Below are positions 10,144 through 54,440 of a stretch of 64,000 bases of DNA, piece by piece. Position 1 is the stretch's first letter; each line of letters starts with the position of its first letter. The stretch is from Trachythela sp. YZ-2020 (Eukaryota; Cnidaria; Anthozoa; Malacalcyonacea; Clavulariidae), in contig JADLSH010000395.1 of NCBI GenBank assembly GCA_016169945.1, positions 568,501 to 632,500 on the forward strand. Direction: 5' to 3'. The translations under genes and the position numbers were made by a program. The notes under the pieces are model-generated. The model saw only the letters and a list, made by a program, of their open reading frames with translations. It was not told where the DNA came from and did not search any database.

Positions 10144-10246
10144 CTTGTAACGCAGTCTAGATGCGAGTGACTTCGTATTTATATATATATATGAACTTGT
10201 TGTATTGATTTCTTCAGACATAAAATTAACTATTTATTTGTTAATA

Positions 10247-10281
10247 TCCAAACGTTTCGCCGGTCAAGGCTTCTTCAGTGG
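10247..10281 (-). ncRNA. Degenerate hammerhead-like motif
   Basis: On the minus strand: CCA, CTGAAGA, then AGCC...GGC, then GAAAC and TTTGGA. Core words match a hammerhead (CTGANGA, GAAA) and CCA/TGG could be a short helix I, but helix III is missing or tiny. Probably a relic or minimal PLE ribozyme. The same motif is in the right arm at 11751-11785. Confidence 0.45.
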
Positions 10282-10489
10282 AATGGTTAGTAGCAATATT
10301 AAGATCCTAGTGTATATACAGGCGTGTCTAATTACAAATTCTAGCTTAGTTCTATTATAAACGGAAGTAATAAAATACTAATCATGCATTAGTAATAAGT
10401 TGTTTTAGGATATAATTCTTCTTTAGGGAACATTATAAATTCTTTAGGTTAAACACAGTTTCTATATAAAATACTAGGTTCAAATCTAT

Positions 10490-10930
10490 CTATCTACAAA
10501 TTGTTCTCCCAACGCAACTGTTCATAATGTCTTCAGGTTGGTTCTGTATTTCAAAAGCCTCTATATATCTTCGTTCCTCGTCATTTCGGATATTTGAATG
10601 CAAAATCCTCCAGGTGATCTGATTTCCTTTACGATTCTTATGTGATGATAAATGTTTAAACACAGTTTGCTTCTCCATTGTTAAATGTTCTTTAATTCGT
10701 GTACCTATTGTTCTGCTAGTCTCTCCTATGTAGATGGTTCCGCATGTTACACACTTAATTTCGTAAATGACATTCTTCTTCAAGCAGCGATTCGGTTTGG
10801 TGGCTAATTTACATGTTTCGCAGTTACGTGGGCAGTTTTGTTTATTCTTCGGCGGGCCAAACACTTTTGATAATGATCTGCCATTAACAAAGTGTATTTT
10901 AACATTCTTTATACGCGATCGATTTAACAC
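10490..10930 (-). CDS. GIY-YIG endonuclease domain of a Penelope-like element (C-terminal fragment)
   Basis: An open frame of 146 residues. A cysteine cluster (CPRNCETC, RCLKKN) precedes VIYEIKCVTCGTIYIGETSR, which carries the YIG motif. TRIKEHL (conserved Arg and His-type positions) and NDEERRYIEAFEI (conserved Glu) follow. This matches the endonuclease that PLE reverse transcriptases carry at the C-terminus to nick target DNA. The reverse transcriptase is absent, as expected for a 5'-truncated copy. It differs from the right-arm copy at four residues (G/V, Q/K, S/G, R/I). The start methionine is arbitrary because the true protein began upstream. Confidence 0.8.
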   Translation of the reverse strand: MLNRSRIKNVKIHFVNGRSLSKVFGPPKNKQNCPRNCETCKLATKPNRCLKKNVIYEIKCVTCGTIYIGETSRTIGTRIKEHLTMEKQTVFKHLSSHKNRKGNQITWRILHSNIRNDEERRYIEAFEIQNQPEDIMNSCVGRTICR

Positions 10931-10987
10931 TTCTAAGGCCCGTCGTTTATATTCTTCATTGATAAATGGGAGTTTGAGGTAAATAAT

Positions 10988-11036
10988 ATCTTGTTGATCG
11001 TCGATCGTTGATAATATCTTGTTGAGGTAAATAGTA
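10988..11036. other. Spacer between PLE arms
   Basis: About 50 bp with two copies of ATAATATCTTGTTGA and a GATCGTCGATCG palindrome. It repeats pieces of the arm edge (GAGGTAAATAG), which suggests a junction formed during inverted insertion. Confidence 0.5.
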
Positions 11037-11094
11037 TCTTATTTACCTCAAACTCCCATTTATCAATGAAGAATATAAACGACGGGCCTTAGGA

Positions 11095-11535
11095 GTGTTA
11101 AACCGATCGCGTATAAAGAATGTTAAAATACACTTTGTTAATGGCAGATCATTATCAAAAGTGTTTGTCCCGCCGAAGAATAAGCAAAACTGCCCACGTA
11201 ACTGCGAAACATGTAAATTAGCCACCAAACCGAATCGCTGCTTGAAGAAGAATGTCATTTACGAAATTAAGTGTGTAACATGCGGAACCATCTACATAGG
11301 AGAGACTAGCAGAACAATAGGAACACGAATTAAAGAACATTTAACAATGGAGAAGCAAACTGTGTTTAAACATTTATCATCACATAAGAATCGTAAAGGA
11401 AATAAGATCACCTGGAGGATTTTGCATTCAAATATCCGAAATGACGAGGAACGAAGATATATAGAGGCTTTTGAAATACAGAACCAACCTGAAGACATTA
11501 TGAACGGTTGTGTTGGGAGAACAATTTGTATATAG
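11095..11535 (+). CDS. GIY-YIG endonuclease domain of a Penelope-like element (second copy)
   Basis: 146-residue open frame, 142/146 identical to the left-arm copy, with the same cysteine cluster, YIG, Arg and Glu motifs. It begins at a position equivalent to the left copy, and the frame is not interrupted in either arm. Near identity implies recent insertion, or gene conversion between arms. Full-length PLE proteins are several times longer, so this is only the C-terminal domain. Confidence 0.8.
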   Translation: MLNRSRIKNVKIHFVNGRSLSKVFVPPKNKQNCPRNCETCKLATKPNRCLKKNVIYEIKCVTCGTIYIGETSRTIGTRIKEHLTMEKQTVFKHLSSHKNRKGNKITWRILHSNIRNDEERRYIEAFEIQNQPEDIMNGCVGRTICI

Positions 11536-11750
11536 ATATAGGATAGATTTTAACCTAGTATTTTATATAGAAACTGTGTTTAACCTATAGAATTTATAAT
11601 GTTCCCTAAAGTAGAATTATATCCTAAAACAACTTATTACTAATGCATGATTAGTATTTTATTACTTCCGTTTATAATATAACTAAGCTAGAATTTGTAA
11701 TTAGACACGCCTGTGTATACACTAGGATCTTAATATTGCTAGTAACCATT

Positions 11751-11785
11751 CCACTGAAGAAGCCTTGACCGGCGAAACGTTTGGA
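11751..11785 (+). ncRNA. Degenerate hammerhead-like motif (right arm)
   Basis: Same motif as at 10247-10281, in plus orientation: CCACTGAAGA, AGCC..GGCGAAACG, TTTGGA. It lies about 215 bp downstream of the endonuclease stop, the expected place for a PLE terminal ribozyme. Confidence 0.45.
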
Positions 11786-11880
11786 TATTAACAAATAAAT
11801 AGTTAATTTTATGTCTGAAGAAATCAATACAACAAGTTCATAATATACCCGATATGTTTCCACAAGCACATTCATATATA

Positions 11881-20105: not shown

Positions 20106-21177
20106 ATGAGCCAGTTGGCTCCAGGTTGGCAGCTCCAGTTTCGCGAACCTGGAGCCAGCTCCAAATTGGCTCGAAACTGGAGCTGGGACGAAAGTTTGTA
20201 AACAAAGCGTTTTGGCCGCTTAACCAGTAATGTAAATGAATTTTTTTTGAAAGACCATTTTTACCTGTCATATTTTCTAGTACGTGACCGAAAATGAGAA
20301 CTTTATTACGTTTCGTTTTTCCACAGTAGCTTGTGAAATTTGACTATTTGTTTTGACGAAAGGCCTGGTCAGCGGCCCGATTGATCGTATAGCTTTTTAA
20401 AACTTTATTTTTTTACCTTTATAATGGCAAACTGTAAAATTTGATTTATGACCGTTCTAGAGAAAGTATTTAAATATAATGTCAAGGAATAAGCGTACTT
20501 CTACATTGCGAAACCGCGATAAATAACTCTGGCAAAGTCGAGCCATCTATTTCACGCGCGGCCCGCTTGTATTAATTTCACACTTCCGTGAACACACAAC
20601 TTTGGTATCGGTAAATTTGCGTTTTGGAGAAATAACCTATTGAACGTTTAATGATATATTATTATTTATTGCACTTTTTTAAAGACTAAACGATCGAAAC
20701 ATCTTCCATATCTGCAACACACAGATATGCGGCTTAGATTGTCGAACTTCAAATACGTCTAGCATAGTACAAATTGTTTCGAAAAATTTCCTCTTAAACT
20801 CGCCTTTCTGCGATTTTTCAAAATATGACCATCTAGATTAATTGTCATTCTACCATATCCTATAGTATTTAAAATTTTAGGATGTATATCCAGCATGGAC
20901 AACTCATGTGAACACTGGCATTCGTGACCGACATGAGAAATCAACTTTCAAGAGATGTAAAATCAACTTGTTTACTTAATACGGTTTTTCCTGAGATTAT
21001 CAAATGACGTCACGTGCCAAAGTACCTGCAAAGACATGAATTATTGTTTTGGTTGTCAATTACGTTAATATATTACATCTCTTGAAAGTGGATTTCTCAT
21101 GTCGGTCACGAATACCAGTGTTCTCGTGAGTTGTTCATGCTGGATATACACCCTAAAATTTTAAATACTATAGGATA

Positions 21178-22258
21178 CTGACGCATCATTGCTACAAGAA
21201 GATCTCGCAAACTTTGAACTGTGCTCCAACAACGCCAAGCTAGAACTCAACGCTGATAAATGCAAGGTTTTAACAATAAGCAGGAAGCACAACGAAATTG
21301 AATACCCGTATAAGCTGCACGATACTGTCTTGGAAAGTACCGACTACGAGCGTGATCTGGGAGTGTGGACTTCATCAAATCTGACCTGGTCTAAACATGT
21401 CGAGTCTCAATGCGCACAAGCCACCAGAATGCTAGGATATATAAGAAGATCAACACTGGACATAAAATCTGTCTCAGTCCGTCGCACTCTGTATTTGACT
21501 CTAGTCCGTTCCCAACTATGCTACAGTTCTCAAGTCTGGGCTCCTCAATTAGTAAACTTGATCAAACGAACAGAAAGAGTCCAAAGACGCGCAACTAAGT
21601 TCATCTTAGATCTGCCCTTTTTCTGCGACATCAGTTACAGCGAGAGACTCGTGGCGTTAGATATCATTCCTCTGTGCTATTGGCATGAATTTCTAGATTT
21701 GATTTTCCTGTTCAAATGTATTCATGGGTTGATAGACATCAACGCAGAGTTACTGCCAACACAACAGAACCGGGAGAGGATTACAAGATCAGCCGATCCT
21801 GACTGCATGCTGTTTACAACAACAAAATGCAAGACTGTGACATTCCAGAAGTCCTTTCTGACAAGATCAACGAGAGTGTGGAATATATTGCCAAAAAACT
21901 TGACGAACAAAGACGCCACTTTCAATGCATTTAAAAACGGACTTTACGAGTATTATAGTTCAGCTTTAACAAACGTTTACGATTCCGAGAATCCACGAAC
22001 ATGGAAGTCAATATGTCTGTCGTGTAATAAGTCTCGTACCTTGTCTTCGTCCAAGTCATGTTGTTTTTAATTGAATATTGTATGTTTGTGTTGTAAATGT
22101 AAAGACTAAAGGGCCGCTGTAATTGGCGAAAGCTGTAGCGTATACCCTGCCATTTGAGTTTGGTGTGTATTGTTTGTCTAAATCATGATGTAATATAAGA
22201 TGTAACTATACGTGTATATTTGGCAAAGCTTAATAAATAAAATAAATAAAATAAATAA
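21178..22258 (+). mobile_element. 5'-truncated non-LTR retrotransposon in foldback element
   Basis: The insertion is bounded on the left by ATACTATAGGATA and on the right by a (AAAT)n tail followed by TGGTAGAATGACAATT. The neighbouring arm copies show these two sequences joined as GGATATGGTAG, so the empty site can be read directly. The tail of AATAAATAAA units marks the 3' end. Confidence 0.8.
21189..22070 (+). pseudogene. C-terminal reverse transcriptase region of a CR1/L2-like element
   Basis: 293 residues with no stop. It starts just after the catalytic box (LELNADKCKVLTISRK), then VRRTLYLTLVRSQLCYSSQVW, LIKRTERVQRRATKFIL, LPLCYWHEFLDLIFLFK-type thumb sequence and TRVWNILPKNL near the end. 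This is the standard end of a non-LTR RT ORF. YADD and the endonuclease are absent because of 5' truncation. The first methionine is not a true start. The intact frame suggests a fairly young insertion. Confidence 0.8.
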
Positions 22259-22430
22259 ATATGGTAGAATGACAATTAATCTAGAAGGTCATCTTTTGAA
22301 AAATCGCAGAAAGGCGAGTTTAAGAGGAAATTTTTGCGAAACAATTTGTACTATGCTAGACGTTTTTGACGTTCGGCAATCTGAGCCGCATTTAACACCA
22401 TTTTTCGCGATCTTGTTTGCGTTGCACTAA

Positions 22431-22829
22431 CCTTAACTAACTAACCCTCGGAACCTTTCTCAATTGGGTTGTAAAACCTGTTAAGGCTTTCCGTCCACCT
22501 CAGAGTGGTAAGCATAATAAAAAAAAGCCAAGATTATTTTATCAGACCATTTTCACTTCGTGCGACTTGTGTTTCGTTAGTGGTTTCTGCAGGCCTACGC
22601 AAACCTAGAACAAAGGACATCCTATTGCGTAAACAGAGTGCTCACGAGGTAACTCTACTATATAACCAAGGCTATTAAGGGGTTCATTTCTTATCTGGGA
22701 GGGGGGGGAGGGGGGGTGGAATTTAGTGAGCTCTCTTAAATCTTTGGCATGGTCCATCCCCATGAAAAACTTTTCCCCACCCCTAAATAATGATATTTTT
22801 TTCATAAGACCCCCCTCCCAACCTCTCCT
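22431..22829. other. Unassigned filler inside foldback element
   Basis: Sequence between the third partial arm copy and the right arm. It has a G-rich run (22695-22720) and shows no coding signal. Confidence 0.4.
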
Positions 22830-23760
22830 TGTTCATGCTGGATATACATCCTAAAATTTTAAATACTGTAGGATATGGTAGAATGACAATTAATCTGGAA
22901 GGGTCATCTTTTGAAAAATCGCAGAAAGGCGAGTTTAAGAGGAAATTTTGCGAAATAATTTGTACGCTATATATGCTAGACGTATTTGACGTTCGGCAAT
23001 CTGAGCCGCATTTAACACCATTTTTCGCGTTCTTGTTTGCGTTGTGTGTTGCAGATATGGAAGATGTTTCGATCGTTTACTCTTTAAAAAAGTGCAATAA
23101 ATAATAATATATCATTAAACATTCAATAGGTTATTTCTCCAAAACGCAAATTTACCGATACCAAAGTTGTTTGTTTACGGAAGTGTGAAATTAATACAAG
23201 CGGGCCGCGCGTGAAATAGATGGCTCGACTTTGCCAGAGTTATTTATCGCGGTTTCGCGATGTAGAAGTACGCTTATTGCTTGACATTATATTTGAATAC
23301 TTTCTCTAGAACGATCATCAATCAAATTTTACAGTTTGCCATTATAAAGGTAAAAAAATAAGGTTTTAAAAAGCTATACGATCAATCGGGCCGCTGACCA
23401 GCCCCTTCGTCAGAAAAAAATAGTCAAATTTCACAAGCTACTGTGGACAAACGAAACGGAATAAAGTTCTCATTTTCGGTCACGTACTAGAAAATATGAC
23501 AGGTAAAAATGGTCTTTCAAAATAATTTCATTTACATTACTGGTTAAGCGGCCAAAATGCTTTGTTTACAAACTTGTCGTCCCAGCTCCAGTTTCGAGCC
23601 AATCTGTAGCTGGCTCCAGTTTCGCGAAACTGGAGCTGCCAACCTGGAGCCAACTGGCTCATCGTCTCCCTTGGATTTCCTTTTTTCCGGGTGTGATAAA
23701 TAACCGAGCGGAATTAGTATCTTCGCCCGGGCTATCGCCTTGCTCGGGGAAAATTTCTAA

Positions 23761-25194
23761 TCTCTTCTTGAATATTTTGTTTAGATATCGATGAATGCAT
23801 ATCATCGCCATGTAATCTTGCAGGTTTTGTCTCATGCAACAACACCCTAGGTTCTTACACGTGTATGTGTAAGAATGGGTCCGCTTCTTATGGAGAGGGA
23901 TGTATTGGTATGTATTCTCGTATACATTAGCATGCTAACATAAATATCCTTTATGTGCCCCCACCTCAACATTTGTACTCATCCTCACAGCACTTGCTTT
24001 CTCTTTGCGTCGAAATCTCTTTCCACGGTATGACATCGAGCACGTACGGAGCGATTGCAAATGACCGACTTTTCCCTTATCCAGTGGGAGAACTCAAGAA
24101 CACGTCTTTCCCAAGAGCATACGCTTCGACCACTTCGTGTTGTGGGCCTCTCAATTCCTCATACCCAAACTTTGAGAGACCAATTTTATTGCATGTTCGA
24201 GAAGAACCATATGACTTTCTTTTATTTTTAATTTATAAGTCGAAAGCCTTAAGGAGCATTTATTGGCTAGAATAATGACACACCTCCTGTCACACCCCGG
24301 TCAAAAATTCCAACGGCAGATTTTGCGCGCTGTAAGTGAGAACAGTCCTTTCCAGCGTCCATCCCAACCGCGAAAAAAAATGGAAAGGACTTTGGGAAAG
24401 TCTAGGAATGAGTAAATAGAGTACGTAACTGTATTCATGCAAATCAGTAAACTAATGTATATCATTTCAAAGTATAGTTTGTAACTAAGCATAATAAAGC
24501 TGTTCTCTGGTTTTTGTACAGCTTATGACTACTGTATCCTTTTCTACGTGACTTTGTCTAATGAAAATCTGGAATTTATTGCTCGCATTGAATCCAGACA
24601 TTTTCAAGTATGGAATGTTCTATTTTTCGCGAGTCGCAAGTTGCTAGGTAGGGTACCGAAAAAAGATAAACTGATAAACTTTATTGGGTAAATACACAAT
24701 TACTGGTGAACCAGTATTTTTCATTGCGGCGCGAGTAATCAAATTTGGCAATGGCAAATGGCTCTGGAAATTTCTTAGGGGACTACTTGCCTGTCAAAAT
24801 TTTGGATGAAAAAGGAAAATCGAATATTTTCCCTGTTTTACAAGTTAGGTTTCATTTTTGATTAGCTTTAATTTCAAACGTATTAGGTCTGACTCGGACA
24901 TTAAGATTTATCGAAGATCTTACGCTGCAAAATTCGTGACATTCAATTCACCGCTGTAAATGGGACCGATTTACATCTTGTATGATAATATTTATATGTA
25001 AGTAATTAATACACATAAAATCTGTTTTCAATAATGGCACATATTTAAGTCAGCAAACTCCAGGTTTGTGATTTGATTGAACATTGACTGATTTATAATT
25101 ATACGATTGACAAATATATTTCTAAAATAAGGCAATTTCTATATGGCAGTAAATGACAGCAAAGATCAAGGGTGCACGGCTGTGCGCATTTTGA
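23761..25194. other. Intergenic stretch, no gene seen
   Basis: No reliable ORF beyond about 100 residues and no repeat structure recognised. Confidence 0.4.
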
Positions 25195-28090: not shown

Positions 28091-29191
28091 AGTGCACCTC
28101 ACCCCAAAAATATTTTTACCTGTATCAAATCTTGACATCATTTCTAGTGTATCCGTGAAAATTTTAATTTATTTGGTCAAATCGTTCGATTTTTATGGCA
28201 GTTTAAAGTTGGCAAAAAGGCACTTTTTGATGGACCTTGTCCGTCGTTACGAGGAGTCTGGAACGAGTAAATTTCGTGACGTCACGCAAGGGACTCGTCA
28301 AAATAAACTCTCGGCCCACATGCAAATCCCCTGTATACTGTCGGCCATCTAGATATGATATTGATATATCAGACGTACAAGCACGAAACTGTACGTAAAA
28401 TGTTTCTCTTGAACAGAGCTTTCGATCTACGCATTTTAGGTGTATGAAACGTATGTAGTTCTCAAGGAAATGTGCACGAAAATCGATGTATGTTTCGCGG
28501 GTCAAACGACGAAAATATATCGTGTGTACTAATTGTGCTGTAGTAGGGGTAAACTTTTTTGACGCGCCTGAAATGAATAATCAAGATATGTTCTCATGCT
28601 TCATACCAAAAGATAGCCGAGAAAAAGGCGATTATTTGGTATATATAGCAGTGACCTATATCGTGTAAACAAAGTTGTAGTTTTAGATGCCTACACGCAT
28701 GAGAAATTGGATTTTCAACGTGCTCTAACTAAATAATACAGTCTTACAGGTATAGCTTAATGCGGCATATTGTTAGATAGCTCTTCTAAAGCTGATTCTA
28801 TCCATATATGGCAATTATATATATCCTGTGTACTAGTCTGTTTCAGGGTTAGACATGATAGCCAAGGCAACAAAGCCGAAATGGCGAACTGAATACAAGC
28901 CGATCAAAGCTAAATGCCGACTACCTTGCGCGACGTCAGAAAATGGGCTAGACCCAGGCTCTTTTTGGTTAGAAAATACGACGGCCAAGGTCCATCGAAA
29001 GCTACGTTCAAAACGCCATAAAAATAGAACGATTTGGCCAAATTAAAAAATTCGTTTCCATATTTTGCCACAGATTCCAATCCACAAGCTCTAAGATTTC
29101 ATTGCATGGTCATTGGCTTAGCTAGATGCATGGTTAATAAATATCTTTAAAAATTACAACAGGGTGCGTGACGTGTATTTTACATTTACAT
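28091..29191. other. Intergenic stretch, no gene assigned
   Basis: Includes CGTGACGTCACG near 28276 and a basic ORF at 28855-29046 that I do not recognise. Nothing ties it to the element that follows. Confidence 0.4.
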
Positions 29192-29201
29192 GACATACTG
29201 G

Positions 29202-29272
29202 TAGGCTCGATCCAGCCGTTGTGTGAGCCCACGGTCCCTTGCCCCACACACCGGCTGGATCAATGCTCGAAC
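29202..29272 (+). repeat. Left terminal inverted repeat
   Basis: Starts TAGGCTCGATCCAGCCG and ends AATGCTCGAAC. It contains its own hairpin: GATCCAGCCGTTGTGTG against CACACACCGGCTGGATC. The asymmetric centre (CCCACGGTCCCTTGCC) fixes orientation. Confidence 0.8.
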
Positions 29273-30243
29273 CTGCTTGTCCGTGACGTCATTCCGTATT
29301 TTCCCATCTAATTAGTATTTATGAAATCCCTCTCTATTTGGCGTGACATTTTTAGCGCTTTTTACGTTGATTTTGACATGTCGAAAGTGTTCGATGGCTG
29401 AACCTGTAAAAACTCCAGAAAAACTTGTGAGGGAGAACAAAAACGCCTGCTTCTTGTGTGGAAAGAATTTGCCCGACGCCAGGAAACGGGCGAGAATAAA
29501 TAGTTCTGTTGCCCTATTGTTATCTGATCTTGAATGCGAACTTGACACCATTGACGTCAGAGGATATTGTTTGTGCAAGGATGATTGCTACAAAAAGGTG
29601 AATAGATTCGGAACTCTGAGAACGACAATGGCAGAACTGTCCAGGACAATAAAATAGATTCATGGTAAATCTAAGGCTTCCTTGCGATGCAAGCGCGGAG
29701 TTCCAAACGACGTAAACGAACAGGTTCTATCACAGCGCCTAAAAAGTTTTGAGAACTCTGATCGAAATTCAACGTGTGTTTACTCCAAAAAGACGCCTTC
29801 CGTTAGGCTTGTGTTTCAACCGGCTACTCTAAATTATAACAATTTGCCACCGTTTCAAGGATGTTCAATCTTACTGCCGAGACTTACGAATATCCTTAAG
29901 AACACACTTCACGCTGTTGTTAATACTAACACAGACGAGTCTGTTTGTAAAGTCGAGGTAAGTTCACCAATTAATTTAATACTTGAATTTACCTTCAATC
30001 AAACGGATTTTATGTACAAACGACGTGTGAATAAATTCATGTTTACTCACCTTTGTTCTAATTTGAAGTTAATTGGTGACTAGTGTTATTACTGTTTATG
30101 TTATTGTATACAATTGTGTTTTTTTCAATTATCTTGTAATTTAAAATGTCTTAACTATAAATGTCACGTTAAATGTCATAAATATAGAAATAATCTGTAT
30201 TGTGATTTTGTGTAAACTATGAAGTTTGTACAATACTCAAAGT

Positions 30244-30358
30244 CATAGGCATACGGGGGTGGACCTCAGTCGACATTCTCGAGTACAAATGGCCCGACAT
30301 GTCACCATTTCTGGCCAAACTGGGGGGCTATTGCCCCCCCCCCCAGCCTTGTATGCCT
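30244..30358. mobile_element. Small MITE in intron 1
   Basis: The ends CATAGGCATAC...GGGGG and CCCCCC...GTATGCCTATG are imperfect inverted repeats spanning about 115 bp, with a C run near 30337-30348. It lies wholly within the first intron of the zinc-cluster gene. Confidence 0.55.
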
Positions 30359-30857
30359 ATGCCTATATGTAAGTCTAATTACGTTTGGTTTATCTCTCAA
30401 GGTTTCTGTGACATATGTAAGTGGTAAAAAGGTATATTCCCTCCCACAAAACATGCATGGTCTTCGCAAAGCTTTAGCAAGAGGAAGTATGAAAAGTGTT
30501 GCCCTATCAGCATTCAATTGCAAGAGTCTGCGGCATTTCATAGAAGATGTGGTAGTACAAGAAATATCAAAGGAATGTAAAAACATTTGTTCTTTGAAAC
30601 AACCATCAGGATTGCGCTCTTTAACCAATGAAGCAATAAATGGGGTTTTCTGGACAAGTGTTGGTAAAGAATTCAAGGAAAGAACACCCTTCTTCTATAA
30701 AGTACTGCAGGCTGGTTCTGGAACAGACGAGAAAGCTGAGTTTCATCCAACTATTGTCAATGCCGAATCAATTATTTTGAACAAACGTGATAAAGCTATG
30801 AGTCTTGTACAGCATATTAAAGGTCTACTCCTTAAAATAGGGAAAACCTCCAAAAAG

Positions 30858-31633
30858 GTATAAAATAATATGTATAAACTGTATTGTTAATAGTATAATT
30901 ACACAAAATTTATCCTTGAAATGTTTTTAATATTCTTGATTCCTGCCATTTTATGAACTAATACCGCAGAATTTCGAAAGTAGCCACCCCCTGAAAGTAA
31001 CCGCTCCCTTGAAAGTAGCTGCATTTTAAAATAATTACTGTACTATGAAAACCCAAATTTAATTAAAATTTTAAAATAGTTGACTCGTTGTGAAAATGTA
31101 AAGTAGTGTTTATAACTTGGCCAATGCTAAAAAAATAAACCCAAACATAAGGGCCCTCTGAAAGTAACCGCCCACCCGAAAGTACCCAACCCTTAATCAC
31201 AAATAAATCAAAGCATTTACTTTGCCACATGAACACAGGATAACACAGTTTATACATTTGGTTGTTGCTTCTATTATGTAGTATGGATATTATACATGTA
31301 TTTGATAGCATTTGAGCAGTCAAATCAAAAAGAGGAACTCCAATTTCAATATACCATCTATATATGATTATAATTTATGCACTAGTCAATTGAAATCCCC
31401 CCTATCTGTGAGTGACTTATATTGTACAAATGAAGTCAAAGCCCCCAGCCCCTTGGGAATACTTATGGGTAAAAAATCCCCCACAAATGGAAGTCAAGTG
31501 CCTGACTACAATGTAATTACTATATATGAATACTGTGTCTGGGGGTCAATTGACAAGTGTAAATCATTGTGTTCATAAAGCTGTTAAAACAATTATTTAA
31601 ATGGTCTTTATTTTGTTGTGCATTTTTTTGTAG
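30858..31633. other. Intron 2 of the zinc-cluster gene
   Basis: 776 bp between AAG|gtataa and ttttttgtag|GGA. AT-rich. A CCACCCCCTGAAAGTAACCG-type short repeat occurs twice (about 30983-31020 and 31155-31185). No coding feature. Confidence 0.55.
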
Positions 31634-33760
31634 GGAATTATCAGAATGAACCATTTAGGTGTGAGTGTCTCACCGAACAGCATAACTAAGACACTTGATT
31701 GTGTTGGTGAAGAATTTGAAAAGCAAAGAAAAGCTTGGAACTTTGAAGTGGCCGCACATCTTGAAAAAGAAGTTGAAACAATATCTAGAATAGAGAGATT
31801 TAAGTAGGTGTAAGTAGCCAGTTAGCGAAAAAAAATTTACAGTTACACTTACTGTAAATGGCGAGTGAAGTTCACTGTCATAGAGGGTAACTCTGACAAC
31901 AAACATTAGCGAAAGAAAGACACCTCATGTAAAATAGAATATGAACTCATCTGTACAGTAATGGTCATATTAAAATTCCAAATGCTGGTAAGTACTATAA
32001 ATCTTTGGAAATATTGCATATTAACACATCCAGTTATGATAACCAACACATCCTGAAGGTTAATTGTACACATATATTTAAAACAATCTACACCTCGGTT
32101 TCACATTCTTCAACATCAATACTCTCTGCAATTTCAATAAATTCTAAAGGGATACTCGCCAAAAATTCATCATTCTGATCAGTTCCCCATGACCAAAAGT
32201 TTAGAAAGTCAGCTGAGTCGTCATCTGAGTCGTCATCTGAGTCACTGTTGTCTTGATAACTAGTGTCTCCAAAAACCTGTGTAATTGCCACGAGAATTTC
32301 GACAGCAACTTGTGGATCCCATATATCAACAAATTTATGTATATCACTAGTTGTAAACAGCTTGTCACAATTGTCTAGTACTTGTTGTACTTGGAGTGGA
32401 CCAAAACCACACACAAGATCAAGTGAAGTGAATAATATGGACTTCTTGTCAGATACATGGAATATAACGTCTTTTACAACAGATTGTTGAATATAGTGCA
32501 ATTTATCTTGCAGTTTATTCTTCTGGGCAGGTGTTACATTTCTCAAATTATTACTGGTAAATGTAATAGCCACATCAAATTTGCCTGATGGAAAGTAACA
32601 AAACTTACAAATATCACCACCACAATGACATTGTCTCTGGCATATGTCACAGCATTCATGAGGCATATAAGGTTTCTTCACATTATTTGCTTGAGAATGA
32701 AAATGAGAAAGCAACATGATCCGTCTGCAGACTGTACTGTTTTGGGCATATTGTTTGATTGCTTCATCACAATGTTTCAACATTACATTTGAATATAGCA
32801 TGATGGCTTTGCACAGATCAGGGGAATCTCTACCAGCTCTCCCACTCTCTTGAAGATATGCTTCTGCATTCCTAGATGGTCCATAGTGTATGATTTATCT
32901 TACACCTTGACAATTAATACCCATTCCATAAGCTATTGTGGCAATCAAAACCCTTATATTTCCACTTGGGTTTGAAAAATCTTTCATGATAGTATCCTGA
33001 TTGAATTCATCAATCCTGGAATGGTACATCTCGACCATTCCATTTGTAATATCCCCTTCTGAAAGATACATATCTGCACCCAATCCGTCTTTGAACACTC
33101 CATATATATGGGAAACAATTTTTATTGTTTGACAATAAATGATGATTCTTTCGAAACAGACCTTCTTTTCTTTCAAAGCCTTGATGATTGGTCCAAATGT
33201 ATGATTTGCACCTCCAGTAACAGCTTGGACAGCATAGGCAATGTTTTTTCTATTAGGACTCTGATTTATAACCACAGGTGTATTCATTTCCAATGTACGT
33301 ACTATTTTATTTTTCGTTGACAATGTTGCAGTTAGAGCAAGTATTGGAACTTTCTTCAGCAGGGAACGTATTTCATTTATTCTCGAAAAACACTTTCGAA
33401 ATGCTTGCTCTCCTTTCCTGAGTGCATATCCCCTAAAAAAATGCAATAACAATTGTACATAAGGATGGCAATGGTAGAACTTTTCTACATATTTTAGGAC
33501 TACTTATAACTACTATTGCTGGGCCAGAGGAGACCCACAGAATTTGACAATTCACATGGAAATCTTGGTCAATTTCATACTGTGGGATTTAAGTCAAAGC
33601 CTAATTATCTACTCATTACTATCATTAGGGGCCATTAGATAGATATTTAGTGGAAAATAAAAATATTCACAGGTGCATATAATTGTCAAAGTGTCGACAC
33701 AAGGGAAGCAGTTAGTTGTCAAATCTTATGGGGATGCTGGACAAATAAATGACTTCTGTA

Positions 33761-36140
33761 AGGCATGCTCTGGGATCTTAACTCGCCTTAACTCGCCGCG
33801 AGATAATGCGAGTTAAGGCGAGTTTAGGCGATTTAAGAAAAAACACAACTTTTAGGTAATGCGTTTTAAGGCGTTTTAGGGCGATTTAAGGCGATTTAAG
33901 AAAAAATACATGGTAATAATTAAATATGCAAGTATAGTACTTTAAGCAAAATACAGTAATAACACATAATTAATAGTGCATAGTAAATGTATTTTGAAAG
34001 AGCACCACTCCCCCCTCACACCCCCACGGGGTCTGGTTAGACTGTCATGTAAACAAGACCCAGTTGAAACTTATTATTAATTAGCTTGTTATTTTGCCGT
34101 ATTACTAATTTTAAGGTTATACCACCAAATTGCTGGAATTAATACAATGAAGAACATAAACCAGTATATAATAACATGTATTTTTAAATTGAATTGCATA
34201 CTAATACCTATTACTAAGTTCAGTCCTGGAACCACAATCAATTGGAAATCTAAAAAATCAGGGTTGTGGCTGTAATGTAGGAACGAGAAGATTTAGTGCA
34301 TCCTATATTTTGAGGGTTGCTATCCTATATTTTGAGAATTTCCAAATGCATGAATGCCTTGTCAATATCTTGGAAATTCCAAGGGTACAGAATATATTAA
34401 AACTGTGACCATGCATGTTCCAATGTGGCAATACATTGTAGTTATTCAAACGAATTTACATATGTGTTAAACTTACCAAATAAGCTTGAATTTACGTTGC
34501 AAATATAGTGTTTCATTTCCATGTGTTCATTTAATAACTAAAACTCAACATTGATTGGTATTTATTTCAATTCCCCTCGATATATAAAGTGCAGTATTTA
34601 TAAAAACTCACTAATGTTAAAATTTAGTTTATATAAAGTTTCCCAGACTTGAATAATAAATTTCCGCTGGATAGCCTGAGAGAAGGCTCCCTCCCCGCAG
34701 TGGCTAACATGAAGTATTTAACTGAATTAATGAAAATGCCAGGTTTTGTTATCGACCCAAGATCGTACGCTAAAAATGTTAAACCTCGGTTATTAAAACG
34801 ATCATGGATCTTTATATAAGTCGATATGAACCGGACAATGCTGACTATAAAAGTTGACCAGGATCATGCTGTGGTTTATCAATTTATGTAAGTTTGAACA
34901 CTGTTGATATAAAATATTAAATGTTGTGCACTACAGGCACTGCAATTCAGCACTTGTATATAAGGCCGTCGGAATTATTAAAAGTATCAGTTTATATTAC
35001 CGTCACTTAAAATTTCGAAAGTTGATAAGCCCTCTACCCTGTAATTTATAGGCCCCGCACTATTTTCAATAATGGAAAACGAAACAATTTATGAATTGTT
35101 CTGGAAGTTCATATCACAATATTGGCATATTAATTATACTTATCGAAATAGATAAAATGTTGAAAACAGACTGATTCTTGCCATCCTGACTTTTTTCTGT
35201 TTGAATATAAGGGTTCCTATGTCATATTATATACCTATAAGCTTGATAGTATGTAACTTATGCACCAGTCATGGAAAGCCTTGCACCCCCCTATCCGGGA
35301 CATGCCGGGGAAATAGCGGGGATTTATTTGCAGATTAGCCTATCTGTTATGCCTGGGTACTCAGGGCATTAGACAGCGTACGTTGGCTATGTGTCATGAT
35401 GGCCAGGGATTATGGGCTGGGAATCAGCGGGAATTCGTCTGTTCGAGATGTATTGTTAAGCCTTGTTCATCGACCTTTACCCTATACTCTATAGACATTG
35501 TTTTACTAAAAATAGCTTTTACAGGATAATGTATTGACTTTGTGTAAATTGCAAGATACAACTAACAGACAAAATGCAAAATATTTACCTACTTTGACAA
35601 ACTCTGGATTGCATGTTTGGCCTCCAATGATCAAAATTGGGGAAATTTTAGAATAGTTTGTTGCCCGGGTAGCGGGGGACTTTAGTCATGTTTAGACTAG
35701 TAAGAAGGCCATGTATAGGTGGGGGATTAGAATGATTTAGGACACAACCTTTATCTAATGTCCGCTGTTCCCTGGGTAGGGGGGTGCAGGGCTTTCCAAT
35801 TACTAGTGCATTAGTGTGTTTCGGCTTTTATCAATAGGCATGTAACTTCCCTTGTTTCGGCTAAGCCCTCTCTTCAGCAAGCCCCCTCGGATAAGCGCCA
35901 TCCTAATCTTATCTGAAATAAACAACCAGAACCCCCCTCTCCTGGGGAAAGGGTGTTTACACTGTATATAGTATTTACTATTTTCAGCATTTTAATTTGG
36001 TTGGCGAGTTTAGGCGATTTAGTGCGAGTTTAAGCGATTTAAGAGAATCGTTGCCAATGTTTATCCGCGATTTAAGGCGAGTTAGGGCGATTTAAGGCGA
36101 TTTAAGGCGATTTAAGGCGAGTTAAGATCCCAGAGCAGGC
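33761..36140. mobile_element. hAT-like insertion in the helicase intron, perfect 8-bp target duplication
   Basis: CTTCTGTA occurs at 33753-33760 and again at 36141-36148. The element between them has ends AGGCATGCTCTGGGATC and GATCCCAGAGCAGGC, near-perfect inverted repeats. Subterminal blocks at both ends are built from TTAAGGCGA/GCGAGTTAAG words (33781-33905 and 36003-36127) in opposite orientation. There is no transposase ORF, so it is non-autonomous. An 8-bp duplication is typical of hAT, although the terminal bases are not classic. Confidence 0.8.
35260..35811. mobile_element. MITE nested inside the hAT-like element
   Basis: ATGCACCAGTCATGGAAAGCC at the left and GGCTTTCC..TACTAGTGCAT at the right are imperfect inverted repeats, followed inward by GCACCCCCCTA/TAGGGGGGTGC. 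It spans 552 bp with no ORF. This gives a third nesting level: TIR unit, then hAT-like element, then MITE. Confidence 0.6.
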
Positions 36141-36743
36141 CTTCTGTATTTATACAACACTATATCAGCTTTGAATACTAAGGACAGACAGTGTATATAA
36201 ATTCAAAAGTCTAGCAACATTTTGATTATAATACAGAGATATGTAGCATATACATTACCAATGCTGAATGCAATGAGCTTCGTCTACTGCAATTAAGCAT
36301 ACTCTGTTGCGATAGACATCACTTGTAAGGACATTTCGCCCCACTGACTCAAGGAACAAAACTTGATCTTGCATCAAAGATGACAAGGGGGAAATTACTA
36401 AACAAATACTGGCAATTTCAGACGGTTTTGAATGAACAACATCGAAGACTGTCGGAAAGCATTGGAAAATCAAAGATTTCCCCGATCCAGTCGGCAATAT
36501 TACCAACACATCTCTTCTCAAAAGAAGGCTCCTAATTCCTTCTTCCTGATGTTTTGTCAGATTCTGAATTTTAAACATAGTTTTAATTTTATCTTTTATA
36601 GCTTGTAAGTCAAGAACCTCGCACACGACTCGCCATTTTTCTCGAACATTTGTTGAACATATAACATGTGATCTGCTTAACCAATCACTACGTTACCTGC
36701 GAAATACTGCAGGCTGCGTTTCTATTGGTCAAATAAAACAATC

Positions 36744-36814
36744 GTTCGAGCATTGGTCCAGCCGGTGTGTGGGGCAAGGGACCGTGGCCTCACACAGCGG
36801 CTGGATCGAGCCTA
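36744..36814 (-). repeat. Right terminal inverted repeat
   Basis: Reverse complement of 29202-29272 with three mismatches. It lies about 120 bp upstream of the first recognisable helicase codon, mirroring the spacing at the other end. Confidence 0.8.
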
Positions 36815-36824
36815 GACATGCTGG

Positions 36825-38228
36825 TGGCTTTCACAGTTTATCGCGCGCAAAAAAATGCCAAATTCTAAACAACAAGACATGCCGCCATGTTATTATCCAC
36901 TTTGATTACAACATTTTCGTTTCTGTCAAAAGTGGCGTGCCGGCGAATAATTCCCGAAGAAATTAGTCGCGCCATATTTAGCTACCTGCTATTTTTGCAC
37001 GCACCCACGCCTTTTATCCACGACTAGCCCAAATTAGACAATCTCGACGATTGTAAATAGTTAAACATTAGTTTTTCACTTTGATTGCCAGAGCAACTGT
37101 GTTCGTTTCGTTGATTTATAAATCTTTTTCTGATTGATCCTGGTGTCAGAAATAATAAAATATATTTGTATTATTTCCTGAGAGACGAAAGATAATTTAA
37201 TTGAGAATTTTAGCGCTTGCTTCAGTATAACAAGGTAACAACACACCGAGCCAAATAATCATTTTTCAACCTATCAGATCAATTTTCTATTGTTCCCAAT
37301 CTGTTTTGGAATTTGACTCAACTGTCACTCAATACTCAAGGTCTTGTGCCCAAATTTAAAAACTCGATATAGGTATTGAATTCAAAATTCAAAATCTAAA
37401 ACAGGTCTAGTGTTTGATATTTAAGAGATTGGAAGAAACGAAAAAAGATATAGAATAAACAACAGATGATTGCTAGATAGGTTCAATGCGAAATGATTAC
37501 TGCACTAAACTGAATATAACACATATTTATTGTCGTTAATTACACTGTTAATCGTCTCATTATGCAGTTCTAGGTAATGCATAATTTCTAAATAGAGCGC
37601 ATCTATCTCAAATGTTCAAATTAATTTATCAAGCAATATAGTCAAAGCAAACAAATATGTCAATATGAAACGTGAGAACAAAATATATTAAAACTTTGCT
37701 CACATGTTCGTCTCTCATCATATAACTGTGGCGGCTAAGAATCTAACTCCGTCCAACTTACGCTTCAAAGCGCAAGAGGGATATCACTCCACCACAGTAG
37801 TGTCTATTATTTTATTCATTATACGTCCATAACGTAACCACATAAAAATTGACCTGCAAACATTTTGTTATCCAATTAATTTGTTTTTGAGAACGTATAA
37901 ACCGGACATTTTGAATACTATAAAACAATGGTAGACCAAAAATTATATAATTTCGACACGTCCTGCCGGCAAAGGAAGGGGTGGGGGGAGGGGAGATGGG
38001 AGATGGGAGGGAGAAATCGGGGGTGGAAGGATGGGGGGAGGCTTTTTATCAATCACTTTCATTGTGCGATTTACAATCCATCAAAATCTGAGAATGTACT
38101 TCAGTTTACCTGTAAGGGCAAAAAAGCAAACTAGTAGAGCACACTCAAGCAGTGATAAAAACAAAAAAAAATATTCAAAAATTTTCTGGCAGCGAAACTG
38201 ATTTCGAACTCCTGAGGACAAGAAAACG
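36825..38228. other. Intergenic stretch, no gene seen
   Basis: AT-rich apart from a G-rich patch at about 37975-38045. No recognised feature. Confidence 0.4.
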
Positions 38229-38325: not shown

Positions 38326-39249
38326 ATCTAACAAATATAATTCCTGTGCGAATTACTCAACGTCAACCAACCATTAACAGAAGAAAATCACATGGTAAGT
38401 GACAGAGCAGGAGAAATACTAACTACCGGGAGTTTTTTCGGGAGGAAACTCGGCGGTGTCAGAGAAAGGACTGGCTCAACTATCTAGAGTTGGTCCGGTG
38501 CAGGATGAGAACAGAGATAACTTTGGTCTAAATCCTACCTACCGTCATGGGAAACATCACGGGCCGAACCATGTAGATGCTAACGTTCATTTTCCTCAAC
38601 ACCCGATCCCTGTACTTATAACAAATCATACCCGGCCAAATAACACTGCTAGAAAAAACGGCAATGTGGTCAATAGCAATAATATTGCTGTTAAAATAAC
38701 CTCCATTGACGAACTTGCAATAACAACTCCTATAACTCATTCAAGCCTAAAGATTGTTCACTTAAATATTCGCTCATTGAGGAATACAGCCCATCTTGTT
38801 CAACTTAGGGATCTAGCCATATCATCAAATATCGATGTCCTTACAATCTCCGAAACATGGTTGAACACAACGGTTACCAACTCTGAAGTCGGCGTCGAGG
38901 GCTATAAGTTGTTCAGGCTCGATCGCCTTCATAAAAGGGGTGGCGGCGTTTGCGCCTACATTCGAAAAGAAATAAAAGCCTCCGTATTAAAATAACTTTC
39001 ACAAATATCCGAAACTAATTTCCACCAACTCTGGATATAACTTCAATGCAATAAATCCAAATCTCTTTTAATAATATGTGTTTCGTACCGTCCACCAGAC
39101 TGTCCTTTGGCCTGTTTTGAGAACTTCTTCAAACCTAATTACATGCAAGCTCTTCTATATGGAAAACCGATTTTCATTCTCGGTGATCTGAACTGCAATT
39201 TGTTAAAGACTAGCCGTGACCAGAAAGTTCTAGCTGACGTACAGGAAGG

Positions 39250-40859
39250 CGAGCAGAATTTTTCTCTTACTCCAAAGGTGTACGTCAAGGATGTATACTA
39301 AGTCCAATTCTTTTTAACTTATACATAAATGAATTAGCTAAATTATTCGAAAACACTAATTCAGACCCTTTCATACTTCCAAACGGCGCAAGACTGAGTT
39401 GTCTTCTTTACGCTGATGATTTAATTATATTATCAAGATCAAAATTTGGACTCCAAAAATGCCTAGATGAACTCAATAACTGGTGTAAAAAATGGCTGAT
39501 GGAAGTTAACTTAAAGAAAACCCAAATTATGATCTTTCAAAAAGGAAATAATAAAATACAGAAACCAAAATTCATGTTAGGTAATAAAAACGTAACGATT
39601 GTACAAGAATATTGTTACTTAGGAATCAAATTGAATTCAAATGGTAAATTTACTCCAGCTATAAAACAGCTAAGTGAAAAAGCACTACATGCACTATACA
39701 GCATACGAAAACATCTCAACTTACACAACCTAAAACCGAAACTAGCTATAAAAATATTCGATAGTATAATATCACCAATTCTTCTCTACAACTCAGAAGT
39801 GTGGGGTGCATACCTCAAAAATGATTTTAATAATTGGGATAAACTTCCAATTGAAAAAACACACTTGAGGTTTTGTAAATTATACTTGGGAGTTGGGAGA
39901 AAATGCACTAACATCGCCTCCAGAGGTGAACTTGGAAAATTTCCACTAATAATAAATATATTTAAACGATTATTTAAATATATTATACATTTAAACACAT
40001 TGCCTGAAACAGCAATTGCCAAACAAGCCTTTTTAATATCTAAAGATTTGTATTCTAAAAAGAATACTTCATTTTATGGAAATGTCACAGATATTTTAAA
40101 ATCATACAATTGTAACACGCAAATACTAGATCTGGAATCAATATCCAATCATTCGGTAAATCTAATCTCAAGCAACATAAAACAAAGTTACATAACATTC
40201 TGGAAACACACACTAGAGAATTCATCGAAACTATGTTTCTACTCTGCTTTCAAAAGGGAATATCAGTTAGAAAAATATCTTACCACAATAAAAAATTCAA
40301 ATCAAAGGAGAACTTTCACACGATTCCGGATAAGTAATCATAACCTATTGATTGAATATGGTAGATACCAAAACATTCCTCAAGCAGAACGACTATGTAC
40401 GATCAGTCAGTCAGGCGAAATAGAAAATGAGTCGCATTTTCTCACATCATGTGAAGCCTACGACAGCATTAGAGAACATTTTTTAAACAATTTACCAAAT
40501 GTTCTCAATAGCACAGATCAAAGAGAACAAAATTTATCCGTAGAAATAATGAAATCAAATGAAACTGAAACGATTTTATTATTATCGAAATTTATTTCTT
40601 CCTGTTTTGTGGAAAGAGATAAATGCCTTGAAACCAGGAATGCTGAAAATCTAATTATTTAAATTCTATATTAGCATATATCTTTGTATTTACTTTTATA
40701 CTTTATACCACATACTTCCACGTAAATAGCACGTATTTTATAGCACATAGTTATCTATACCGTACTTAGTTTAGCACCTATTTCATAGCTTTAGCAATAC
40801 CTGTAACTAGAGGTCATGCCAATAAAGCAATTATTTACTGTTACTGTTACTGTTACTGT
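39250..40859 (+). mobile_element. Non-LTR retrotransposon B inserted in element A
   Basis: 5'-truncated copy that starts inside the RT and ends with a (GTTACT)n tail at 40840-40859, after which element A sequence resumes. Its clade is not assigned. The C-terminal RLCTISQSG..ENESHFLTSC zinc-type motif differs from the end of element A, so the two belong to different families. Confidence 0.85.
39255..40662 (+). CDS. Reverse transcriptase C-terminal half of element B
   Basis: One open frame runs from the truncation point to TAA at 40660-40662. It begins FFSYSKGVRQGCILSPILF (motif B), then LLYADDLIILS (catalytic YADD intact), WLMEVNLKKTQIMIF, YCYLGIKLNSNGKF, SPILLYNSEVWGAY and a C-terminal Cys/His cluster. 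The first methionine, at 39499, is internal and not a real start. No stop in about 470 codons implies a recent insertion. The fingers and nuclease are absent, so it cannot move alone. Confidence 0.85.
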
Positions 40860-46171: not shown

Positions 46172-46543
46172 TCAGCCGACATAATAAGTGACATAGCATA
46201 CATTAATTCCATAGTTCCTCAATTTAGAAACTTGGTCATTTAGAAGTGCCAATAATGGTGTTATTACAACTGTGACTCCTGTAGTTGCCAGACCCGGAAT
46301 CCAGTAGCAAACAGATTTACCTCCTCCTGTAGGAATAATGGTTAATGTATCTTTATTGTCCTTGCTACACTCAACCACTTCTCTTTGCATACCCCTGAAG
46401 GTGTCATGATGAAACACATTTTGAAGAATGTCCAAAAAAGGGTCTCCAGAAACCTGAACACATGCTCCCTCACTTGTTGGCTCTTGTAATGTTATAACAG
46501 CACCAGACGGCGTAACCATATTTGATCTATGATCCGATCCTGA
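46172..46543 (-). pseudogene. RecQ-like helicase, N-terminal fragment
   Basis: The exon begins after atcttcag at 46543. It reads FRGMQREVVECSKDNKDTL (Q-motif region), Walker A PTGGGKSVCYW, then VVITPLLALLNDQVSKLRNYGI (motif Ia). At NVCYVT the frame shifts. Another frame continues MSAEERDITFNELT, the text expected next in this RecQ subfamily, then stops. DEAH and all later motifs are absent. It is a different paralogue from the 32-36 kb copy. Confidence 0.8.
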
Positions 46544-52003: not shown

Positions 52004-53676
52004 TCGGACTTACGTTGAACGAAGAAGAAGATGAGTAAACGGACGACATTAGCGGCTAGTTGTCGCTAATGGGGGGAGAGTGTAAGAATTCGAGTGACGT
52101 ATGACACATTATTATTATTATTATTCAAATTATGTTAATATGTATATATATAGATGCGGGTACTGCGGGTTGTGTCATAAGGTAAATAACAAGATGTTTT
52201 TTTCTGCATCTCACTCAACTAAAATTGATGTAGAAGGTTTAGGTGGATGGATATTTCGAGTGAAATATTATATACAATATTTTAGACCTGAACGGAAACG
52301 GTTGCGAAAAATGCAACTCTAAGTCCTCCGACAGGAATTGAACCTGCGGCCCTGCGATTCCGGTGCAGCGCTCCGACCACTGAGCTACAGAGTCCAGTTG
52401 CCAAGCGTTAACCACAAGTTCATGTACATATGTACATGCGGGTACTGCGGGTTGTGTGATAAGGTAAATTACAAGATGTTTTTTTCTGCATCTCACTCGA
52501 TTGAAATTGATGAGAAGATTTAGGCGGATGGATATTTCGAGTGAAATATTATATACAATATTTTAGGACTGAACGGAAACGGTTGCGCAAAATGCAACTC
52601 TAAATCCTCCGACAGGAATTGAACCTGCGGCCCTGCGATTCCGGTGCAGCGCTCTGACCACTGAGCTACAGAGTCCAGTTACCATGTGTTAACCACAAGT
52701 TCATGTATATATGTAGATGCGGTTATTGCGGGTTGTGTGATAAGGTAAATTACAAGATGTTTTTTTGCATCTCACTCGATTTAAATTGATGTAGAAGGTT
52801 TAGGTGGATGGATATTTCGAGTGAAATATTATATACAATATTTTAGATCTGAACGGGAACGGTTGCGAAAACTGCAACTCTAAGTCCTCCGACAGGAATT
52901 GAACTGCGGCCCTGCGATTCCGGTGCAGCGCCCTGACCACTGAGCTACAGAGTACAGTTGCCTAGTGTTAACCAGACGTTCATGTATATATGTAGATGCG
53001 GTTATTGCGGGTTGTGTGATAAGGTAGATGACAAGATGTTTTTTTCTGCATCTCACTCGATTGAAATTGATGTAGAAGGTTTAGGTGGATGGATATTTCG
53101 AGTGAAATATTATATGCAATGTTTTAGACCTGAACGGGAGCGGTTGCGAAAAATCCAAATCTAAGTCCCCGACAGGAATTGAATCTAATGCCCTGCGATT
53201 CCGGTGCAGCGCTCTGATTCTGATTGAACCTGTTGCTCTGCGATTCCGGTGCAGCGCTCAGGTGCGCGCTCTTCTACATCATTTTCTATCGAGTGAGATG
53301 CAGAAAAAAACATCTTGTAATTTACCTTATCACACAACCCGCAGTACGCGCATCTACATATATACATGAACTTGTGGTTAACGCTTGGCAACTGTGCTCT
53401 GTTGCTCAGTGGTCAGAGCGCTGCACCGCAATCGTAGGGCCGCAGATTCAATTCCTGTCGGAGGATTCAGAGTTGCATTTTTCGCAACCGTTCCCGTTCA
53501 GGTCTAAAATATTGTCTATAATATTTCACTCGAAATATCCATCCACCGAAACCTTCTACATCAATTTCAGTCGAGTGAGATGCAGAAAAAAAACATCTTG
53601 TAATTTACCTTATCACACAACCGGCAGTTCCCGCATGTACATATATACATGAACTTGTGGTTAACGCTTGGCAACT

Positions 53677-53748
53677 GGACTCTGTAGCTCAGTGGTCAGA
53701 GCGCTGCACCGGAATCGCAGGGCCGCAGGTTCATTTCCTGTCGGAGGA
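53677..53748 (+). tRNA. tRNA-like block (best copy of the array; probably not a functional tRNA)
   Basis: Good A box (TAGCTCAGTGGT) and T-arm/B-box region (GCAGGTTCATTTCCTGT). An anticodon-type arm CTGCA..CGCAG has a 7-nt loop. The acceptor ends pair poorly (GGACTCT against CGGAGGA), and the block is repeated six or more times inside larger units. This fits a tRNA-derived repeat better than a tRNA gene. Confidence 0.35.
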
Positions 53749-54033
53749 CTTAGGGTTGCATTTTTCGCAACCGTTTCCGTTCAAGTCTAAAATGTTGTAT
53801 ATAATATTTCAATCGAAATATCCATCCACGTAAACCTTCTACATCAATTTAAATCGAGTGAGATGCAGAAAAAACAGCTTGTAATTTACCTTATCACACA
53901 ACCCGCACTACCCGCATCTACATATATACATGAACTTGTGGTTAACGCTTGGCAACTAGACTCTGTAGCCCAGTGTTCAGAGCGCTGCACCGGAATCGCA
54001 GGGCCGCAGGTTCAATTCCTGTCGGAGGACTTA

Positions 54034-54338
54034 AGGCCGGTTTACAGTTCGCGCAATCTCGTCGCGCGAATGAGCGAATTTGTCACTGAGCATGCGTGCG
54101 GGTTATTTATGGCAAATTTTGTCATTCTCCTTGATTCGCAGCGACTGGCGAAAGAGTTGAAAATTTTCAACTTTTTCGCCAGTCGCCAGCGAACGAATTA
54201 AAATTTAGCCAATCAAGAGCCAGGATTTTTGCAATTTTGCAAATTTTCGAGCGAGTTTTAAAATGTGTAAACCCGATTCGCTATGTTCGATAATTCTCCA
54301 GTTCGCGCGACGTATTCGCTCGAACTGTAAACCGGCCT
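54034..54338. mobile_element. 305-bp Harbinger-like MITE with TTA target duplication
   Basis: Ends AGGCCGGTTTACAGTTCG and CGAACTGTAAACCGGCCT are perfect inverted repeats, flanked by TTA at 54031-54033 and 54339-54341. Sister units of the array read GGACTTAGAGTTGC at this point, which is exactly the empty site. TTA/TAA duplication is typical of PIF/Harbinger. A central CTTTTTCGCCAGTCGC palindrome is present. No ORF. Confidence 0.85.
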
Positions 54339-54440
54339 TTAGAGTTGCATTTTTCGCAACCATTCTCGTTCAGGTCTAAAATATTGTATATAATATTTCA
54401 CTCGAAATATCCATCCACCTAAACCTTCTGTTTCAGTTGG

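Follow-up and report, generated by a model that had tools for sequence, protein, structure and literature searches.

Terminal inverted repeats (TIRs) are a trait of the Academ superfamily of DNA transposons. Within this superfamily, the AcademH lineage was reportedly defined by Kojima in 2020. Two of the Academ lineages are set apart in the consulted portion of PMC10045372: AcademH elements encode a helicase and are flanked by target duplications of 9 or 10 bp, whereas AcademX elements carry a nuclease in place of the helicase and have duplications of 3 or 4 bp, so that the length of the duplication is tied to the type of the encoded enzyme. The accessible part of a 2013 paper (PMC3627910) speaks of a "RecQ Helicase in Academ", and fungal AcademH helicases appear in an excerpt of PMC10799480. 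The Academ material in the consulted parts of PMC5753468, PMC12210899, PMC8290104 and PMC9970103 consists of classification lists or citations only.

The locus described here lies in a stretch of 64,000 nucleotides, referred to as the window (C385:568501-632500), of a genome of 578 Mb in 396 contigs. It contains a unit of 7.6 kb (29192-36824), a broken DNA transposon copy which is probably non-autonomous and very likely belongs to the AcademH lineage. This placement follows the published description of AcademH.

Boundaries of the unit

The unit is delimited by two TIRs of 71 nt, located at 29202..29272 on the + strand and at 36744..36814 on the - strand. The two repeats are identical at 68 of 71 positions (3 mismatches), and their pairing scores 115 bits, compared with the top score of 46.4 bits among 20 window-sized first-order Markov sequences. 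Each of them abuts one copy of a 10-bp target-site duplication, GACATACTGG at 29192..29201 on the left and GACATGCTGG at 36815..36824 on the right. The copies agree at 9 of 10 positions, a level attained by 17 of 200,000 random 10-mer pairs drawn from the window. Each TIR is in addition an imperfect palindrome (in the left one, the arms are 29209-29234 and 29236-29261), with a hairpin fold z of -4.3 for the left and -3.4 for the right repeat. Within the window, a blastn search with the TIR found no occurrence outside the unit. The repeats enclose two convergent spliced genes, and the distance from the left TIR to the start of the + strand gene is 122 bp. The first-pass annotation, which had placed 71-bp inverted repeats exactly inside a 10-bp direct repeat and two convergent spliced genes between them, is thus borne out, with the direct repeats matching at 9/10.

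Other repeats and genes are distributed along the window. A 3.4-kb unit at 20192-23575 has inverted repeats of ~530 nt that are 96% identical, and a near-perfect inverted duplication at 10190-11842 has arms of 503 and 301 nt (98%), each bearing a similar ORF; the ORF on the - strand matches GIY-YIG (E 2.3e-5). Tandem units of ~281 bp, in which tRNA-like genes are contained, occur in both orientations at 52140-54438; the Rfam search of the whole window gave five tRNA matches, all in this region, and none in the unit. A reverse transcriptase ORF is found at 39238-40662 (RVT_1, E 7.7e-22).

The + strand gene and its lost DUF6589 region

The + strand gene is preserved as the remains of a predicted transposase gene. 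Exon 1 (29394..29957) has 53% identity to the protein P0001, contains an in-frame TAG at 29655-29657 and shows a CxxC...CxxxC motif recognized by eye. Exon 2 (30402..30857) matches P0002 along 30402-30836, with 33% identity and an E of 4e-18. The third exon is represented by its start (31634..31807, 73% identity to P0127), which ends with a stop at 31805-31807 after 57 codons. An internal-deletion scar follows at 31803..31847, where ~2.59 kb of the copy on contig C390 (L010:3215-5801), including the DUF6589 exons, are missing in the window; the window copy also has no counterpart of about L010:7955-8073.

The identity of the lost region is indicated by the relatives of this gene. P0003, P0004 and P0006 begin within its third exon and continue into PF20231 (DUF6589), with scores of 25.0, 24.8 and 26.9, just under the Pfam cut-off of 27. 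In contrast, none of the pieces of the window's + strand gene has a DUF6589 match in Pfam, and a tblastn search of the window for a remnant of the domain found none. The earlier description of a DUF6589-type gene holds through the relatives which continue into the domain. The DUF6589 region, proposed earlier as the first candidate for the transposase, remains the predicted one, though it is deleted from this copy. Within the window, the sole background examined, transposase queries in sets of 23 and 8 match only the unit.

The - strand gene and its nested insert

The - strand gene encodes a RecQ-like helicase in two exons. Exon 1 (36259..36692) is an open frame with the DEAD domain (E 1.8e-12), and exon 2 (32088..33432) contains Helicase_C (E 1.6e-7) and RecQ_Zn_bind (E 1.2e-4, slightly under its cutoff) and has 71% identity to P0007. 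The GT-AG intron between them (33433..36258) was placed by reading the sequence, and P0012, P0014, P0017 and P0018 read across the junction. One of these relatives, P0012, matches the PDB entries WRN, BLM and RecQ1 by sequence. Compared with four relatives, the window helicase has lost 40 residues between SPL and DEAHC in exon 1, its ATG is out of frame, and a TAA (32895-32897) stands in frame before IIHYGPS in exon 2. Both genes of the window copy thus carry in-frame stops. A search of viral contigs with the helicase gave no matches.

The intron of the helicase gene holds a second TIR element of 2.38 kb (33761-36140; 33753..36148 with its duplications). It has inverted repeats of ~38 bp, 10-bp subterminal repeats resembling GGCGATTTAA, and an 8-bp duplication, CTTCTGTA, at 33753-33760 and 36141-36148. 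Two further RecQ-like helicase fragments lie on the - strand outside the unit, at 23996-24226 and 46187-46501 (DEAD, E 4.4e-10, in 46190-46519), and the window searches found no transposase match near either of them.

Copies and hairpin elements with the same TIR

The TIR is repeated in the host genome, where it has at least 48 matches. Both ends are present in the window copy, in L009 (C385:1000822-1006138), in L010 (C390:8666481-8674458) and in a copy on contig C82 (C82:405997-416932; L011, L012). L009 is situated ~0.4 Mb from the window copy on the same contig, and its region (C385:1000500-1006500) corresponds to window positions 28838-37123 in inverse orientation, with 93.8-99% identity in pieces. 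It is regarded as a duplicate of the window insertion because it has the flanks and the target duplication of the window copy, in inverse orientation. Like the window copy, L009 has the internal deletion in the transposase gene; no stop interrupts its helicase match, and the nested element is absent, leaving an empty site with one copy of CTTCTGTA.

The elements on C390 and C82 are independent insertions bounded by the window's TIR. The first, of 8.0 kb, contains both genes and has TTATTATAT on either side (9/9); the second, of 10.9 kb, contains the remains of both and has GCTTAACTG on either side (9/9). TIR pairs of this kind, 5-12 kb apart, with 9-10 bp direct repeats and both genes inside, were what the first-pass annotation had suggested looking for, and the RecQ-like and DUF6589 genes are consequently flanked by the window's TIR at other sites as well. 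The C390 copy retains the DUF6589 region, in which L010:3354-4049 corresponds to PF20231 positions 16-154 (E 9.3e-7) and L010:4388-5572 to positions 194-410 (E 4.1e-32). The match to the DUF6589 exon shifts frame near L010:3378, and for this reason no copy seen in the TIR family of the window is intact.

Further copies have a single end. C19 contains both genes (the helicase with 5 stops), C116 the N-terminal part of the transposase, and C11 the remains of both genes, with a right flank that it has in common with C82. The four best helicase matches in the search with P0007 (66-72% identity; 99 scored of 728 candidates) are all in copies with the window's TIR, and C19, which is one of the four, has just one TIR. 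The best matches of the protein search, P0001 for the transposase and P0007 for the helicase, are listed on contigs of identical size (1,028,607), and the named protein relatives are mostly anthozoan (Paramuricea, Montipora, Oculina, Actinostola), which makes a cnidarian host likely.

Thirteen further TIR matches, L016-L028, were read as short stretches. Five of them (L018, L019, L020, L021, L024) are hairpin MITEs, palindromes 66-89 bp long in which both ends read TAGGCT and which are flanked by perfect 9-bp duplications. The duplications of L022 and L023 match at 8/9 and 7/9, the left end is altered in L016 and L017, and L025-L028 are partial. L016, L017, L019, L022 and L023 are counted as one insertion, as their flanks are common to all five. 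The TIR might have turned out to be always a solitary hairpin; such short hairpins exist, but it also bounds gene-bearing elements.

Divergent RecQ-like loci

The association of the two genes extends beyond the TIR family of the window. Twenty loci of ranks 5-26 among the 99 scored (728 candidates; C124:230153 and C119:96624 excluded) were sampled by rank rather than at random, with helicases of 33-51% identity in the P0007 search. The stretches read were 9.9 kb long, with more room left 3′ of the helicase, where the transposase was expected. A DUF6589-type transposase lies tail-to-tail with the helicase in 19 of these 20 ranked loci (best E per locus <= 2e-30), limited to its C-terminal part in L034 and L036; the remaining locus, L044, gave no transposase match. 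As the loci were taken by rank and their stretches were biased towards the layout that was expected, this proportion is not a genome-wide estimate for RecQ-like loci. It does support the earlier proposal that joint carriage on a mobile unit explains the abundance of both gene types.

An inverted repeat pair surrounds the helicase in 9 of the 20 loci, and the other 11 have no TIR pair within the 9.9 kb read. In eight (L034, L037, L038, L039, L040, L042, L046, L048), repeats of 76-148 bp starting with TAGGCT or TAGCCT enclose both genes. Their exact duplications measure 9, 8, 9, 9, 9, 9, 10 and 9 bp, respectively, so that 9 bp occurs six times and 8 and 10 bp once each. Duplications were accepted solely where they abut the TAG[G/C]CT ends; for L048, the automatic reading gave 11 bp with shifted ends, and placing the end at TAG gives 9 bp. 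In the ninth locus, L047, the TIR pair has no detectable duplication. Together with that of the window, six TIR families are represented. In six of the eight elements with exact duplications the TIRs are 100% identical, which indicates recent movement.

The sampled loci also show conserved residues in the DUF6589-type transposase. D109, N110 and D112 (15/15) and G263 and D264 (16/16), in P0006 numbering, are invariant, as is E232 of the C-terminal exon (17/17), and a C2H2-like set (C126, C131, H145, H149) is conserved alongside them. Judging from this conservation, D109 or D112, D264 and E232 are likely the catalytic residues, a putative assignment; other acidic residues are equally conserved, e.g., E269 of P0006 and, in the C-terminal exon, D204 and D271. 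Two structure predictions, each covering only part of the DUF6589 region, had pLDDT values of 44 and 39 and gave no confident fold. Among viral contigs, 28 stretches fit a search pattern for DUF6589 and none was a relative.

Probable assignment to the AcademH lineage

Several of the properties listed above correspond to those published for AcademH. The - strand gene of the window combines DEAD and Helicase_C domains, in line with the helicase described for AcademH and the RecQ helicase noted for Academ in the consulted parts of PMC10045372 and PMC3627910. The duplications of 10 bp in the window (9/10) and of 9 bp at C390, C82 and five MITE loci (9/9 each) fall within the 9 or 10 bp of that lineage, and TIRs are present in the window copy, the further copies and the sampled divergent loci. 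The candidate for an Academ-type DDD/E transposase is the DUF6589 region of the relatives, with invariant acidic residues of which several could be catalytic. The window copy differs from AcademH in having no catalytic region, and the likeness is one of descriptions rather than of compared sequences. AcademX belongs to the same superfamily, but the nuclease and the 3 or 4-bp duplications given for it in the consulted portion of PMC10045372 are at variance with the helicase and 9-10 bp found here.

The first-pass annotation knew of no transposon superfamily defined by the RecQ/DUF6589 pair. A new superfamily was considered as the main reading, and it was dropped because a helicase with 9-10-bp duplications is already in print for AcademH (consulted parts of PMC10045372 and PMC3627910). 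A weaker form of this idea is a separate superfamily convergent on AcademH, with the same helicase type and stagger and an unrelated DUF6589 transposase. The coincidence of two published AcademH marks, the helicase and the 9-10-bp duplication, in the same excerpts makes such convergence improbable. It would nevertheless agree with the descriptive nature of the likeness, with the Pfam entry, which gives DUF6589 as a family of unknown function, and with the absence of the term DUF6589 from the literature searched.

Kolobok elements duplicate the target TTAA, and no such duplication is found at the unit, its copies, the MITEs or the divergent elements, where the duplications are mostly 9-10 bp and varied in sequence. 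This makes a KolobokH-like element highly unlikely, even though KolobokH likewise encodes a DDD/E transposase alongside a RecQ helicase and one rhodophyte Kolobok has RecQ on the complementary strand; moreover, KolobokH is reported from fungi only, in the accessible part of PMC9587614, and the genome here is likely that of an animal. It is scarcely credible that two host genes were trapped by chance between opposed short MITEs, as the palindromic TIR and its 66-89-bp hairpin forms might suggest, since the target duplication surrounds the entire unit and the C390 and C82 elements, inserted elsewhere, carry the same TIR around the two genes or what is left of them.

Under the AcademH assignment, the DUF6589 protein of fuller relatives would act as a predicted DDE-type transposase, which would bind the palindromic TIRs and cut at their shared TAG[G/C]CT ends. 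Insertion with a 9-10-bp stagger would then produce the observed duplications, and the RecQ-like helicase encoded tail-to-tail may help by unwinding the DNA at the excision or repair step. The window copy has lost the predicted catalytic region by internal deletion and has gained the stops and the nested insert. Because its TIRs are nearly intact, it could in principle still be mobilized in trans, which has apparently happened to the palindromic MITEs of 66-89 bp that share its ends.

Implications for the RecQ-like and DUF6589 genes

The finding that 19 of the 20 sampled RecQ-like loci adjoin a DUF6589-type gene makes it likely that AcademH-like elements explain much of the abundance of both gene types in this genome. 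We consider it probable, taking both parts together, that AcademH transposases have DUF6589 as their catalytic domain and that much of the genome's RecQ-like/DUF6589 expansion consists of a single AcademH population, diverse and active until recently, with the hairpin MITEs it mobilizes. The connection of DUF6589 with the AcademH transposase, and of the RecQ expansion with AcademH, is possibly new. The term DUF6589 did not occur in the literature search, and the titles and abstract beginnings of papers on Academ or RecQ expansion in cnidarians contained no report of the link; this set excludes the defining work of Kojima (2020), in which cnidarian copies or this transposase may have been reported already.

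If this reading is true, it ties DUF6589, whose function is unknown, and a helicase family present in excess in a likely cnidarian genome to one transposon lineage, and the numbers of RecQ and DUF6589 genes in genomes of this kind are consequently likely to be largely counts of transposons. The recent movement indicated by the six elements with identical TIRs would allow the helicase's part in transposition to be tested.
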